From Halogranum rubrum (GTDB lineage Archaea > Halobacteriota > Halobacteria > Halobacteriales > Haloferacaceae), in NCBI RefSeq assembly GCF_900114455.1, contig NZ_FOTC01000001.1, positions 831,058 to 895,057 on the forward strand: a DNA stretch of 64,000 nt. The letters run 5' to 3'. Every line of letters starts with the position of its first letter. Position 1 is the stretch's first letter. Below the pieces are notes generated by a model. That model was not told the origin of the DNA. It saw nothing but the letters and a program-made list of their open reading frames with translations, and made no database searches. Of this stretch, positions 32,098 through 40,949 are shown in pieces. Position numbers and translations under genes: made by a program.

Positions 32098-32892
32098 TCA
32101 GCCGAGTTTGTCGTAGGAGTCCTGCTGAGAGCGGTACCAGAGGACACCGCCGACGAGGACACCGACGACGAGCAGACCGCCCACCGCGTAGAGGGCGAGC
32201 TGCATCGTCTCGTCGGACTGTTTAGCCGAGTCGGCCTGCGACTGTGCCTCGTTTCCGAGTTCGGTCGCGAGTTCGAAGTCCTCAGGACCGTTCGCGTTGT
32301 TGTACGCGCTGACGGCGTTGTCGAAGGTCTTCTCCGCCTGCTGGCTGTTCGCGCTGTCGACGGCCGTAGCGGCCGAGTCGAGCGTCTCACGGGCCGACGC
32401 ACTCTCTTCCGTGTAGTGGTGCGCCCGCCACGTCTCCAGTTCTGTACTCGACCCACCGTCACGGGCCTGCGTCAGTGACATCAGCAGGAACTGTTGGGCG
32501 GGGTCGTAGCTGTAGTTGTCCACTTTGGGGACCGTCCCCGTGACCTTCACCTTCACCTCGTTCACGTCGTCTTCGGCGGCGACGTCGACGGACATGTTCG
32601 TGCCGTCTGCGGACTGTTGGTCGAGTTTCGACCCGGTCTGGTCGTAGCTCGTCACGGTCCACGTGACGTCGGTGAGGTTCGTCTCACCTTGGAGCGTCCA
32701 CGACTCCAACTGCGGGTTCTTGTACAGTTCGTCCAGCGTCACCGTCGCGCTCACCTGACTGCCGACTTCGGCCTCCTCGGGAACGTCCGAATCCGCGACC
32801 GAGACGGCGGCCGCTGGGGCCGCCACCGCGGTGAGGAGGACGAGGCAGGCGACAAGGAGTTTAGAAGAGTGATTCAAGTTCGTCCTCGTCAT
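32098..32892 (-). CDS. Exported one-TM surface protein, unknown, downstream of cetZ1
   Basis: A 264-residue protein with a Sec signal (LLVACLVLLTAVAAPAAAVS), an ectodomain with a beta-rich first half (TVTLDELYKNPQLESWTLQG...) and an Ala/Ser-rich helical second half. A C-terminal helix follows (LALYAVGGLLVVGVLVGGVL) with a short basic/polar tail, so the bulk is outside. Its start overlaps the last 32 bases of cetZ1, implying coupled translation. A gene at this place is conserved in my memory of Haloferax order (cofC, this gene, cetZ1). Function unknown; the linkage makes cell-shape or envelope involvement plausible. Confidence 0.82.
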   Translation of the reverse strand: MTRTNLNHSSKLLVACLVLLTAVAAPAAAVSVADSDVPEEAEVGSQVSATVTLDELYKNPQLESWTLQGETNLTDVTWTVTSYDQTGSKLDQQSADGTNMSVDVAAEDDVNEVKVKVTGTVPKVDNYSYDPAQQFLLMSLTQARDGGSSTELETWRAHHYTEESASARETLDSAATAVDSANSQQAEKTFDNAVSAYNNANGPEDFELATELGNEAQSQADSAKQSDETMQLALYAVGGLLVVGVLVGGVLWYRSQQDSYDKLG

Positions 32893-34042
32893 CGTGGATG
32901 AGATTGTCGAGATTCGTCTCGCTCTCTTCGTTGATTTCGTCGATGTTCTCCTGGGCCTCGATGGCTACCTGCTGGAGCTCTTTGATGCGGGGGACGTTCG
33001 TCACGCCCGACAGGAGGATGACACCTGCGACGAACCCACTCCCGGTGACGGGGTAGTCGCCACCACGGACTTCCATGCTCCCGGTCTGCTCCTCGAGCCA
33101 CTTCCGCCCGCGCTCTATCCCTTTTCGATTGAGGTAGGCCGGCGGACCGGCCATGACGAGCAACGCACGCTCTGCACCCTCGATTTCGCACGGGAGGGTG
33201 AGACGACCCAGTGCCGCCTTCCGGACGAGACTCGTGATGCGGTTCGTCGTCCGCGCCGTGTCGAGTCCGTCGTCTTCCTTCTTACTCCCAGTCAACCGCG
33301 AGAGGAGTCCACCGGAGTTCTGCACCTCCTCGACCTCTTCGCGGGCGTAGCCGACGGTAGAGACACCGCCGCCGGCGAGCGTGTTGATGATCTCACTGGA
33401 GTCGACGACGCTCTCTGCGACTTCCCCGCCGGTGACCTCACCGGCCCCGAAGAGGATACCGAAGCGCTTGACAATCTCTTCGTTGATCTCGTCGTAGCCG
33501 CCTTGGACCGACTCGCCGGTCTTTCGCCACGAGTCGTTGTCGAACACGAGGAGGTTGTCCACCTCGCGGACGAACGTCTGGAACGACCGCGCCGCGTTCA
33601 GGGTGTAGATACCACCCTCGTCGCTACCTGGCAGGACGCCGAGACCGTAGACGGGTTCGGTGTAGATGCGTTTCAGGTGTTTCGCGAGAACGGGTGCGCC
33701 GCCGGAGCCAGTGCCGCCACCGAGTCCGGAGACGACGAGGAACGCGTCGACTTCGTGGACGGGGACGGAGTCGATTGCGCCCTGTACCTCGTCGACGTCT
33801 TCCTCGGCGACTTCGGCACCGAGTTCGTTGTCGGCACCGACGCCGTGGCCTTTGACTCGCGACTGTCCGATGAGAACTCGCTTCTCCTCGGGGATGTGCG
33901 AAAGTCCCATCAGGTCGGCTTTCGCCGTGTTGACCGCGACGGCGGCCTTCACGATACCCGAGTTGTGCCGCTTGTCGTACTCGACGAACTTGTCGACGAT
34001 CTTCCCACCGGCTTGGCCGAATCCGATCATCGCCAGCTTCAT
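32861..34042 (-). CDS. cetZ1: Tubulin-like cell-shape protein CetZ1
   Basis: A 393-residue FtsZ/tubulin-superfamily GTPase of the archaeal CetZ group. Motifs: MKLAMIGFGQAGGKIVDKF (T1), GVGADNELGAE (T2/T3), the nucleotide signature SGLGGGTGSGGAPVLAKHL, and FDNDSWRKTGESVQGGYDEI. The M-loop region lacks tubulin features, and the conserved CetZ1 C-terminal end DDEDELESLF is present. CetZ1 controls rod development and motility in Haloferax. A Gly-rich variable loop (NSGGLLSRLTGSKKEDD) sits mid-protein. First gene of a unit with the one-TM protein and probably cofC. Confidence 0.96.
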   Translation of the reverse strand: MKLAMIGFGQAGGKIVDKFVEYDKRHNSGIVKAAVAVNTAKADLMGLSHIPEEKRVLIGQSRVKGHGVGADNELGAEVAEEDVDEVQGAIDSVPVHEVDAFLVVSGLGGGTGSGGAPVLAKHLKRIYTEPVYGLGVLPGSDEGGIYTLNAARSFQTFVREVDNLLVFDNDSWRKTGESVQGGYDEINEEIVKRFGILFGAGEVTGGEVAESVVDSSEIINTLAGGGVSTVGYAREEVEEVQNSGGLLSRLTGSKKEDDGLDTARTTNRITSLVRKAALGRLTLPCEIEGAERALLVMAGPPAYLNRKGIERGRKWLEEQTGSMEVRGGDYPVTGSGFVAGVILLSGVTNVPRIKELQQVAIEAQENIDEINEESETNLDNLIHDDEDELESLF

Positions 34043-35348: not shown

Positions 35349-35951
35349 ATGCTTGTCACGCTCGAAGGACTCGACGGCAGCGGTAAATCGACTGTCTGGG
35401 AGGCGCTTCACGACACCTACCCCGACGCCGTCTTCACCCACGAACCGACGGAGTCGTGGTACGGTGACGCCGTCAACCGGGCTATCGAAGACGACGACGC
35501 CGACCCGCTGGCGACACTCTTTCTCTTCACCGCCGACCACGCCGACCATCTCTCCAGCGTGGTTCGACCGGCCCTCGACGACGGCGAACTCGTCATCTCC
35601 GATAGGTACTCCGACTCGCGGTTCGCGTATCAGGCGGCGAGTCTCACCGACTCCGACCTTAGACGCCCGCTGGAGTACATCCGAGGGATTCACACTGCCT
35701 TCTCTCGCTCCCCCGATGCGACCATCTACCTCGATATCGACCCCGAGACGGCCGCGGCCCGGAGCGGTGCGACCAACAAGTTCGAACAGGCTGGCTATCT
35801 CGCACAGGTCCGTTCGAACTACGAGCGACTCATCGAGGCCGAACCCGAACGGTTCGTCCGCATCGACGCCACCCAGTCACCCGAAGAAGTCATCGACGCC
35901 GTGGAACTGGCGCTCGAACGGCTACTCGACAGCGACACGTCGGGCGAGTAA
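35349..35951 (+). CDS. tmk: Thymidylate kinase
   Basis: A 200-residue P-loop kinase that phosphorylates dTMP to dTDP for DNA synthesis. P-loop: [16 protein letters not shown]; the DR[YHF] motif is [12 protein letters not shown]; the dTMP site is in the [12 protein letters not shown] segment; the LID follows [17 protein letters not shown]-like caaggtttaag about 25 nt upstream implies a leaderless message. It borders the replication origin described next, a functionally fitting place but possibly coincidence. Confidence 0.94.
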
Positions 35952-36073
35952 CGAGTCCTCGGTCGATTCGGCGCTCCTGTATCCCACGATGAGCAGTCGC
36001 GTGGAATCGGGGAACGCAACGGTCGATGGACGAGGGACAACGAGTAACGAACGAACTGTGCGAGTGTACGAGT

Positions 36074-36462
36074 GTGTGAGTGCGGGTTTCCGCTGTAAAT
36101 CGGGCGAGAGTGAGGTGGCATTTTCGAGCACGCCAACGAGTCGAGACGAGAGTGAAGAGTCCAAGTGCACGTTTCCGCTGTAAGTCGAGAGACGAGTGCA
36201 ACGAGGTAGGGTGACGTGAGTATACGACATCTTCGGTCCGGTTGAAAAAGAAGAAGAAAAAGAGAGAAACGTAGCCGAGAACCACCGAGAAACCAGTAGA
36301 CGACGTGCCAACGTCGTCAAAGAGAACCACAGTAATCTGTCGTGGTTAAGGGAGAGTGTGAGTGCGGGTTTCCGCTGTAACTGGCGAGTGGAGGACGACA
36401 GCTCGAACGGCCAAGGAAAAGAGTATATAAACAGCCAATTTCGGTGGGCGTTTCCGCTGTAA
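36074..36462 (+). repeat. Left set of origin boxes (4 direct copies)
   Basis: Exact tttccgctgtaa at 36087-36098, 36172-36183, 36369-36380 and 36451-36462. Copies 1 and 3 share 25 identical bases (36074-36098 and 36356-36380), extending left as gtgtgagtgcggg. Copies 2 and 4 have gtgcacg and gtgggcg in that place. The G-rich flank on the same side of every core suggests a two-part recognition site, like the core plus G-tract of other archaeal boxes. Confidence 0.9.
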
Positions 36463-36545
36463 AACTTTATCGTACGCTGTTCTAGATGGCATTCAGTCTC
36501 TAGCGTGAAAAGAAATTCGAAAAGTATATCATACAAATACAGATG
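36415..36545. other. AT-rich putative unwinding element
   Basis: This segment is far richer in A and T than the rest of the window, with stretches such as gagtatataaacagccaatt and gtatatcatacaaatacaga. It begins inside the last left box and ends at the purine-rich tract. Position between the inverted box sets fits a duplex-unwinding element. Confidence 0.65.
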
Positions 36546-36665
36546 GACTAGAACTAGAGTACGACTAGTAGAGAAAGTAGAGAAGAGAAGGTAGAGAGTA
36601 AAGAGTAGAAGAATGAGACAGTGATGAAGTGAAGCCAGTAGGGAAACGAGGGTGAAGGTACAATT
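36541..36665. other. Purine-rich tract in the origin
   Basis: About 120 bases of strong strand asymmetry: the + strand is mostly A and G (for example gtagagaaagtagagaagag and similar runs). A shorter tract, aaaaagaagaagaaaaagag, lies at 36244-36263. Such tracts are easily melted or can form unusual DNA structure, and may extend the unwinding region. Confidence 0.6.
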
Positions 36666-36816
36666 CGAGAGGAGACTGATAACGAGTGAACAGAGTGGTC
36701 TACGGGCCGAGAGTGGCGTGGATGAGTCTCTTTCGGGAACTGTCTCGTTGGTCTCTGTCGAGGATGCTCGACACCCAACTCCCGGCGTGCCATGCCGACC
36801 GGTCTGTTCGCTCCGA

Positions 36817-37204
36817 TTAGAGCGGAAACGTGCACGCACGCTCTCGATGTAACCGAGAGACGTACGTCGGTCTTACAACGGAAACGCGCACTCGCTCACT
36901 TCTACCGCCGCTTATTCACCGTCACTCGCCCGTCGTCACCGACCTGCCACCACCCGCCGTCGTTCACTATCACCAACTCGACGTCGCTCCTAGCGAGGGA
37001 CATCTGTCGTGTTCAGAGACGGACCCGACACCCCTCACGCCACCACTCCTTAGAGCGGAAACACGCGCGTCCACACTCGATACCGTAACTTCACAGACGC
37101 CGACGATAGAGCGGAAACGTCGACAGGGGTAGTGCGCGTCTTTCCGTTCTAACGTCCCGTACCGGACGCCACTGTACGATTGAACAGACGAGTTACAGCG
37201 GAAG
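36817..37204 (-). repeat. Right set of origin boxes (mostly inverted)
   Basis: Copies of ttacagcggaaa with one or two changes: ttagagcggaaa 36817-36828, ttacaacggaaa 36873-36884, ttagagcggaaa 37050-37061, atagagcggaaa 37106-37117, and ttacagcggaag 37193-37204. One copy faces the other way, tttccgttctaa 37141-37152. Cores are followed by c-g-c-g-c-a-c-rich flanks (cgcgcactcgctcac after the second), the complement of the left-hand gtgagtgcggg. Confidence 0.85.
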
Positions 37205-37250
37205 GGCGCATATAAACACTCAAGAGTATCGGCTGAGGCTGAGAGAACTG
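37193..37250 (+). promoter_or_regulatory. orc1/cdc6 promoter containing an origin box
   Basis: The last box (37193-37204) ends six bases before a clear TATA element, tataaa at 37211-37216, and the start codon is at 37251. The box therefore lies where the BRE and upstream activators sit, so initiator bound to it should block or modulate its own transcription. Confidence 0.7.
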
Positions 37251-38565: not shown

Positions 38566-39183
38566 ATGAACCCGGACGACAACCATCACGGATGGGCGAA
38601 CCGCTCCGGCGACTTCTCGCCCGCCTACTACGCGGAAATCGGCCCGAACGAGGTGAGCGAGACGCTCGTCACCGTGTTCGAGCATTTCGCTCCTGACGAC
38701 CCCGCTATTCTCGAAATCGGCTGTAGCTCCGGCCGACACCTCGCCCACCTGCTGGACCACGGATACGAGGACCTCACCGGCATCGACCTCAACGACGAGT
38801 CGTTCGAGGTGATGGCCGAGTACCACCCGCAACTGGCCGAGACGGGAACGTTCCTCGCGGGTGCCATCGAAGACTTACTCCCGGAGTTCCCCGACGACAA
38901 GTTCGACGTCGTCTACTCGGTGGAGACGCTCCAGCACGTTCACCCCGACGACGAGTGGGTGTTCGAAGAAGTCGCTCGCGTCTCCTCGGACATCGTCATC
39001 ACCGCAGAGAACGAAGGTAACAGTCCCCAGCGCGGGCGGAAAGGCGCAGAAGTGAGTTACGTCAACGACGACTTCCCGCTCTTTCACCGCAACTGGAAAG
39101 ACGTGTTCTCGGATATCGGTCTCGCCCAACTGCTCTGTGAACCGGGGAAGCGAGACACGGTTCGCGTATTTCGCGGGCTCTGA
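38566..39183 (+). CDS. SAM-dependent methyltransferase (class I)
   Basis: A 205-residue enzyme with the SAM loop ILEIGCSSGRHLAHLLDHG (motif I) and GIDLNDESFEVMAEY (motif II). DVVYSVETLQHVHPDD (motif IV region) follows. The glycine-rich E/DxGxGxG is altered to EIGCSSG, as in several small-molecule or tRNA methyltransferases. Substrate unknown. Start at 38566 (MNPDDNHHGWANRSGDFSPA); 100 bp after orc1/cdc6, same direction. Confidence 0.87.
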   Translation: MNPDDNHHGWANRSGDFSPAYYAEIGPNEVSETLVTVFEHFAPDDPAILEIGCSSGRHLAHLLDHGYEDLTGIDLNDESFEVMAEYHPQLAETGTFLAGAIEDLLPEFPDDKFDVVYSVETLQHVHPDDEWVFEEVARVSSDIVITAENEGNSPQRGRKGAEVSYVNDDFPLFHRNWKDVFSDIGLAQLLCEPGKRDTVRVFRGL

Positions 39184-39266
39184 TACCGCTGTCTCACGCG
39201 TTTAGCGTACACTGACGACTACCGCACACCGGAGATATTTGTGTCGGTCGTGAGAACCGAGGACAC

Positions 39267-40949
39267 ATGACGTGGTACGTCTCCGTTCCGACCGAGTCCT
39301 ACGAGGTCGCTCGCGACGAGTTCTCGTGGGCGTTCCCCGACGGCTACAACGCGGCGACCGACTTCCTCCGTAAGCACGACCACGCCGACGACCGGACCGC
39401 GCTCTCGCAACTCGCCTCGGACGGCACCCGCGAGGCGTACACGTTTGCCGACCTCGACCGACGGTCGGACCGAGTCGCCAACGCACTCCGTGCTCGTGGC
39501 GTCGACCGCGGCGACCGGGTCGCCGTCTTCGTCCCGCAGAAACCCGCGAACGTCCTCACCCACCTCGCCTGCTGGAAGTTAGGTGCCGTCTCGCTTCCGC
39601 TCTCGATTCTCTTCGGCGAGGAGGCACTCCGCTACCGACTTCGAGACAGCGAGACCACCGTCGTCGTCGCCGACGAGAGCGTCCTCGACACCGTCGTGGC
39701 CGCCGCCCCCGACTGTCCCGACCTGACGCACGTGCTGACGGTCGACGCTGACGCTGACGGCACTCCCGCGCCGTCCGACCGCGACACCGACGACTCGACG
39801 ACGTGGGACCGATTCGCCGCCGTCGTCGACGACGCCCCATCCGCGTTCGACGTCGCCGACACCGACCACGAGACACCCGCAATCGTGATGTACACGAGCG
39901 GAAGCACCGGACCGCCGAAAGCTGTCCTCCACGGTCACGGCCTCTGGGCCGGCCACTGTCCGGCGTTCTCGATGTACTTCGAACACGAGGTCCACGCCGA
40001 CGACGCGGTGTTCTGGACGCCCGCAGATTGGGCGTGGATCGGCGCACTCGGCGATCTCGTCTTTCCCGCGTGGCACTACGGCCAACCGGTCGTCGGCCAC
40101 CCGATGGGGAAGTTCGACCCCGAGCGCGCCTTCGAGATTCTCGCCGAGTTCGACGTGACCCACACGTTTCTCCCGCCGACGGCCATCCGGATGATGATGA
40201 GCGTCGACGACCCGACCGGCCGGTTCGACCTGTCGCTGCGAGCCATCTGCTCCGGTGGCGAACCGCTGACACCCGAGATTCTCGACTGGGCGGCGGAGTC
40301 ACTCGGCGGCGTCGCTGTCAACGAACTCTACGGCCAGACGGAGGCGAACCTCCTCGTGACCAACTGCCAACAGTGGTTCGAGGCGCAACCGGGAAGCATG
40401 GGAAAGCCCGTCCCTGGCCACGACGTCGCCGTCGTCGACCCGGAGACGGGCGAGCGACGACCGACGAGCGACGTCGGAGAGATTGCGGTCCGACGCGACG
40501 GCGACCCGGTCGTGTTTCGGGAGTACCTCGACGACCCGGAGAAGACGGCCGCCACGACGGTCGGCGACTGGCATCTCACCGGTGACCTCGGCGTCGAAGA
40601 CGACGACGGCTATCTCTGGTTCAAGTCCCGAGACGACGACCTCATCATCACCAGCGGCTACCGGGTCGGTCCGGGCGAGGTCGAACAGGTACTGCTCGAA
40701 CACGAGGCAGTCGAGCAGGTCGGCGTCGTCGGAGTTCCGGACGAGATGCGCGGAGAGGTTGTCAAGGCGTTCGTTCAACTCGTTCGACCGACCGGCAGTG
40801 TGACCGCCGCCGACGCGATACGCGACGAACTGCGTGACCTCGTTCGGTCGCGCCTCGCGAAGTACGAGTACCCGCGCGAAATCGAGTTCGTCGACGAACT
40901 CCCGCAGACGACGACCGGAAAGATTCAGCGTCGGAAGCTACGTGAGTGA
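39267..40949 (+). CDS. Acyl-CoA synthetase, AMP-forming
   Basis: A 560-residue adenylate-forming ligase that activates a carboxylic acid with ATP and loads it on CoA. Motifs: IVMYTSGSTGPPKAVLHGHG (A3), NELYGQTEANLL (A5), WHLTGDLGVEDDDGYLWFKS (A7), YRVGPGEVEQVLLEH (A8) and the catalytic lysine of TTTGKIQRRKLRE (A10). Similarity is highest to the acetate/medium-chain branch (start WYVSVPTESYEVARDEFSW). Substrate chain length unknown. Single gene. Confidence 0.93.
   Translation: MTWYVSVPTESYEVARDEFSWAFPDGYNAATDFLRKHDHADDRTALSQLASDGTREAYTFADLDRRSDRVANALRARGVDRGDRVAVFVPQKPANVLTHLACWKLGAVSLPLSILFGEEALRYRLRDSETTVVVADESVLDTVVAAAPDCPDLTHVLTVDADADGTPAPSDRDTDDSTTWDRFAAVVDDAPSAFDVADTDHETPAIVMYTSGSTGPPKAVLHGHGLWAGHCPAFSMYFEHEVHADDAVFWTPADWAWIGALGDLVFPAWHYGQPVVGHPMGKFDPERAFEILAEFDVTHTFLPPTAIRMMMSVDDPTGRFDLSLRAICSGGEPLTPEILDWAAESLGGVAVNELYGQTEANLLVTNCQQWFEAQPGSMGKPVPGHDVAVVDPETGERRPTSDVGEIAVRRDGDPVVFREYLDDPEKTAATTVGDWHLTGDLGVEDDDGYLWFKSRDDDLIITSGYRVGPGEVEQVLLEHEAVEQVGVVGVPDEMRGEVVKAFVQLVRPTGSVTAADAIRDELRDLVRSRLAKYEYPREIEFVDELPQTTTGKIQRRKLRE

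Follow-up and report, generated by a model that had tools for sequence, protein, structure and literature searches.

Replication origins that lie beside orc/cdc6 genes in haloarchaea have been sorted into families (Wu et al. 2012, PMC3528665), in which inverted ORBs surround an AT-rich element directly 5' of orc1/cdc6 and the ORB family follows the Cdc6 family. Initiators are specific to the adjacent origin (PMC3936714), and it is known from earlier work on haloarchaea that each initiator clade has its own box (PMC3528665, PMC3936714). The ORBs of Wu et al. were recognised by a G-string (PMC3528665), a halophile-specific element at the ORB end that is essential at oriC1 of H. hispanica (PMC3936714, PMC4010727). 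Such origins are recognised by several inverted repeats around an AT-rich element, by direct adjacency to an intact orc1/cdc6 gene and by a box type shared within an initiator clade, the G-string being a further, descriptive feature of haloarchaeal ORBs. In a published model chromosomes acquire origins along with their initiators (PMC3528665, PMC4441112), and many of the origins predicted in haloarchaea lie dormant or show no activity in wild-type cells (PMC4595724, PMC3528665). Halogranum was outside the study of Wu et al. 2012 (PMC3528665).

The window analysed here is a 64 kb stretch of contig C6 (1.66 Mb) from a draft assembly of Halogranum rubrum (4.57 Mb, 17 contigs). Its original prediction described an origin with ten copies of one repeat, arranged as inverted sets around an AT-rich centre directly before an orc1/cdc6 gene, and the layout proved to be of this kind (Table 1). 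A search of the window with TTACAGCGGAAAC at two or fewer mismatches gave 12 matches versus 0.56 expected by chance (100 shuffles, largest 3), and 9 of the 12 fall inside the box-bearing stretch at 36086-37205, which ends 45 bp 5' of the orc start codon; the tenth predicted copy is weaker, having three mismatches. All four 5' copies read on the minus strand and the 3' ones on the plus strand except for the weak one; the AT content between the two sets was taken from 100-base windows starting at 36451-36551. The exact sequence TTACARCGGAAAC is found six times in the 4.57 Mb genome, five of these in the origin region, and no second copy of the region was found elsewhere in the same genome.

Table 1. 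Features of the putative origin and its immediate neighbours (window coordinates; distances are from the orc start codon)
Feature	Position	Strand	Remarks
tmk (dTMP kinase)	35349..35951	+	TIGR00041 above cut-off; conserved upstream neighbour, outside the origin; syntenic with cetZ/SDR in other genera
Intergenic region, putative origin	35952..37250		Present in three Halogranum species
Box 1, TTACAGCGGAAAC	36086..36098	-	Tail CCGCACTCACACACTC
Box 2	36171..36183	-	Tail GTGCACTTGGACTC
Box 3	36368..36380	-	Tail CCGCACTCACACTCTC
Box 4	36450..36462	-	Borders AT-rich centre
AT-rich centre	36451..36650		58-65% AT; candidate duplex-unwinding element
Box 5, TTAGAGCGGAAAC	36817..36829	+	
Box 6, TTACAACGGAAAC	36873..36885	+	
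Box 7, TTAGAGCGGAAAC	37050..37062	+	
Box 8, ATAGAGCGGAAAC	37106..37118	+	-145; position fixed in three species
Box 9 (weak), TTAGAACGGAAAG	37140..37152	-	-110; inverted partner of box 8; position fixed in three species
Box 10, TTACAGCGGAAGG	37193..37205	+	-58; beside TATA-like ATATAAA at 37210-37216
orc1/cdc6 initiator, 404 aa	37251..38465	+	Intact AAA+, lid and winged-helix domains

The initiator gene matches TIGR02928 (E=2e-121, 405 bits), contains Cdc6_lid and Cdc6_C, and its product is homologous to the structures 2v1u_A and 2qby_A. It is 98% identical to the protein of H. amylolyticum, two genomes of the genus encode it at 97-99% identity and, within Halogranum, identities are 96-99%. The inverted pair at -145/-110 and the box at -58, which abuts the TATA-like element of the orc promoter, keep the same distance to the start codon in all three Halogranum species, and 36 of the 38 loci examined across the initiator clades have a box no more than 80 nt from the orc start. 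These fixed, promoter-proximal positions suggest that the initiator autoregulates its own promoter through the nearby boxes.

How the box relates to known types was judged from the other initiators. At least eight box types are present in this genome alone: the initiators L002, L003, L004, L005 and L007 are accompanied by the repeats TTTGCAGCGGCAACGnGGGGTGT, TTTCACCGGAAACnnGGTGTG, TTACGCTCGAAACGTGGGGTGTG, AACGTCGGAAACGTGGGGTGGGGG and AGCACTGGAAAC, respectively, L006 by TTACATTCGCGA..GGTGTGTG and L011 by a repeat of the type CAAACCGCTGTG..GGGAGGGT. No adjacent box array was recognised at three further homologues, L012, L008 and L009, the last two being scanned only for the GGAAA core. Initiators of other genera at 51-54% identity to the Halogranum protein have TTTCACCGGAAACnnGGTGTG boxes. 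Sister initiators at 53-57% identity, from many genera and partly on megaplasmids (for example, Halorussus limi NZ_CP096661), have WTACAGCGG(C/A)A(A/C)C followed by GGGGTGTG. In a maximum-likelihood tree, which contains several long branches, the Halogranum initiators form one clade (100/100) that is joined with the ACAGCGGCAAC clade (100/100), and this grouping agrees with the half-box TTACAGCGG that Halogranum and sister boxes have in common. The grouping of boxes by initiator clade across haloarchaea, proposed earlier as a check, was borne out: box type requires seven changes on the initiator tree, which is the minimum, versus a mean of 16.4 after shuffling, and none of 200 shuffles was as low. 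The three Halogranum species have one common box type, so that the box type is shared within the initiator clade. The sequences thus support the distinct box/initiator pair that had been proposed, with the box following the initiator clade in three species, but the box is not unrelated to known types, being derived from the sister-clade box.

The likeness to the sister origins (Halohasta, Haloprofundus, Halarchaeum, the Halorussus limi megaplasmid and others) extends to a proximal box at about -60, whereas their boxes, of the form WTACAGCGG(C/A)A(A/C)C-nGGGGTGTG, usually have GGCAAC or GGCACC and their genomic locations are different. A box wholly unlike known types was ruled out by these sister boxes with the same core. 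The ORB TAACAGCGGAAACAGTGGGGTGGGGGGGT of H. lacusprofundi Hla_3512 and H. walsbyi HQ2959A (PMC3528665) has nearly the same 13-base core, a likeness seen from box sequence alone, but it carries a long G-string. H. hispanica oriC1-cdc6A and oriC2-cdc6E and H. mediterranei oriC2 to oriC4 are comparable as initiator-specific chromosomal origins, with later-gained origins beside the ancestral oriC1, although oriC1 of H. hispanica requires G-strings (PMC3936714) and lies at a different locus.

The main difference is in the tail of the box. From 25 boxes of the three Halogranum species the consensus is TTACAGCGGAAAC n CGCrC ... CACwCTC, with tail positions 14-16, 18, 24 and 26-27 conserved at 1.1-1.6 bits. 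One G-string test, which also scored GGTGTG, was applied to all three box groups and found a G-string in 0 of 25 Halogranum boxes versus 90 of 116 sister boxes (78%) and 83 of 115 TTTCACC boxes. The tail composition is reversed as well, with C at 0.48 and G at 0.19 in the Halogranum boxes and G at 0.46 and C at 0.17 in the sister boxes. The original prediction had noted a gtgagtgcggg-type flank, which is seen as described, and the lack of a TTCCA..GGAAAC core with G-tract; TTCCA and the G-tract are indeed absent, but GGAAAC is present. Judging from these sequences, we take the Halogranum box to be derived from the sister ACAGCGG(C/A)A(A/C)C + G-string box, the G-string having been swapped for the C-rich tail nCGCrC..CACwCTC. 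A promoter-proximal TTACAGCGGAAAC box that lacks a G-string is already seen in some sister origins (L236, L237), and the Halogranum type may have evolved from such a box. Fifteen positions that are invariant in both other initiator clades differ in the Halogranum initiator; the changes are mostly conservative and spread out, with a slight concentration at 160-180 and 280-300, and this comparison of invariant positions in three clades named no residue that would explain the loss of the G-string.

Boxes without a G-string were also seen elsewhere. In the same genome, the region 5' of the orc gene of L007 (G000:C15:42108-46241) has G-string-less AGCACTGGAAACgaCACTCTCTCTG boxes with a CACTCTC tail like that of the window boxes. 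Orphan arrays of TTACAGCGGAAACGTrCACTy in inverted sets, likewise without a G-string, are present in a genus of another family at L131:6472-6888 (G084:C2:331471-331887) and L132:7322-7565 (G108:C78). For about 6 kb around these arrays there is no intact initiator gene, with a short orc remnant about 5 kb off in L132, and this box was not seen at any Orc homologue that was checked in the two genomes, which suggests a relic or a trans-acting origin.

The same plan is found in H. amylolyticum, where the AT-rich centre (L017:2760-2850) is stronger, and in the third Halogranum genome (L023); box number, orientation and tail are kept across the three species despite diverged spacers. Seven genomes of other genera (G029, G012, G008, G035, G026, G003 and G084) preserve the whole order cetZ-SDR-tmk-PDH-trk and lack orc there, with a tmk-PDH gap of about 0.35-0.8 kb, and parts of this order, again lacking orc, are retained in further genera. 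The closest initiator homologue outside Halogranum is 57% identical, and no intermediate was found among 392 genomes of the order. Since the ori-orc unit is missing from the conserved tmk locus of other genera, it was probably gained by the Halogranum ancestor between tmk and the pyruvate-dehydrogenase-like gene, which fits the published model of joint origin and initiator acquisition (PMC3528665, PMC4441112). The same distribution, in which other genera lack the unit beside tmk and only Halogranum has homologues above 57%, tentatively speaks against identity with oriC1, the ancestral archaeal origin, which is marked by an initiator of the universal Orc1 clade in a conserved context. The CetZ tubulin-like gene of the block conserved across genera is at 32861-34042 (minus strand), two genes 5' of the origin. 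Methyltransferase and AMP-dependent synthetase genes 3' of orc (38569-40949) are also present in H. amylolyticum and were not found behind orc in the Halogranum genome G002; the region behind the origin is thus variable within the genus.

Taken together, the locus is very probably an initiator-specific, Orc1/Cdc6-dependent chromosomal origin, a replicator-initiator pair gained by the Halogranum ancestor. The adjacent Orc1/Cdc6 would bind the boxes of both inverted sets, melting would take place in the AT-rich centre and MCM would be loaded there; through the -145/-110 pair and the -58 box the initiator would regulate its own promoter as well. Counted against an origin are a weak GC-skew signal, the dormancy of many predicted haloarchaeal origins and the absence of the G-string that is essential at H. 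hispanica oriC1 (PMC3936714). The general archaeal definition of an origin makes no demand for a G-string, however, and the Halogranum origin is thus a variant rather than a non-member. Proximity to an rRNA operon was looked for with a 16S model, which gave no match in the draft assembly.

Firing in wild-type cells is less certain than the identity of the origin. It may be dormant or vestigial, with boxes and initiator kept, no normal firing and the initiator serving another role or as a back-up, which we consider possible but rather doubtful. Dormant origins with the same layout are known, namely H. mediterranei oriC4-cdc6H (PMC4595724) and H. hispanica oriC4/oriC5 (PMC3528665), recent gain, as it probably took place here, has been proposed to accompany dormancy (PMC4595724, PMC3528665), and GC skew over 1.59 Mb has a weak local maximum at the origin, rank 47 of 734 positions. 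Active use is indicated, however, by box number, orientation and tail kept in three species while spacers diverged, and by initiators that are 96-99% identical. Dormancy overlaps with the preferred reading, since a chromosomal origin gained with its initiator does not require wild-type firing.

The fixed -145/-110/-58 boxes beside the promoter, and the capacity of ORB-rich regions to titrate Cdc6 (oriC2D, PMC3936714), could also mean that the boxes serve chiefly as an operator and titration array regulating orc and not as a start site. We regard this as very improbable because inverted sets that span 1.1 kb and enclose an AT-rich centre form an origin layout that exceeds the needs of a promoter, and replication from the same layout has been demonstrated in other haloarchaea (PMC3528665). 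Even less credible is a recently captured plasmid or viral replicon that is still mobile, which the partly megaplasmid-borne sister initiators (Halorussus limi NZ_CP096661) might bring to mind: the same locus with chromosomal neighbours on both sides is found in three species. A viral origin was dropped when the search for a viral relative found none, and a plasmid copy of the origin was dropped as plasmid DNA matches, among those listed, span only the orc gene at 66-70%. A plasmid or viral replicon is possible as ancestry and unlikely as the present state.

Box/initiator pairing was known, and what is newly added to the chromosomal origins of haloarchaea is the G-string-less box variant. As the G-string is published as halophile-specific and essential at one origin, the Halogranum boxes are a real if modest exception. 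Whether they represent a G-string-independent class of haloarchaeal box, its tail rewritten as a C-rich CA-repeat of opposite strand composition with a co-evolved initiator, is in our judgement evenly balanced. If so, the halophile G-string, though supposed to be essential, can be exchanged, and origin searches that demand it would overlook such origins. The two sister initiator clades, having a common left half-box and in one case a tail of opposite strand composition, form a natural experiment, and comparison of both initiators could reveal the residues that recognise the G-string and whether it is dispensable. The locus would also provide a case in which a chromosome acquired an origin at an exactly delimited site within otherwise conserved surroundings.
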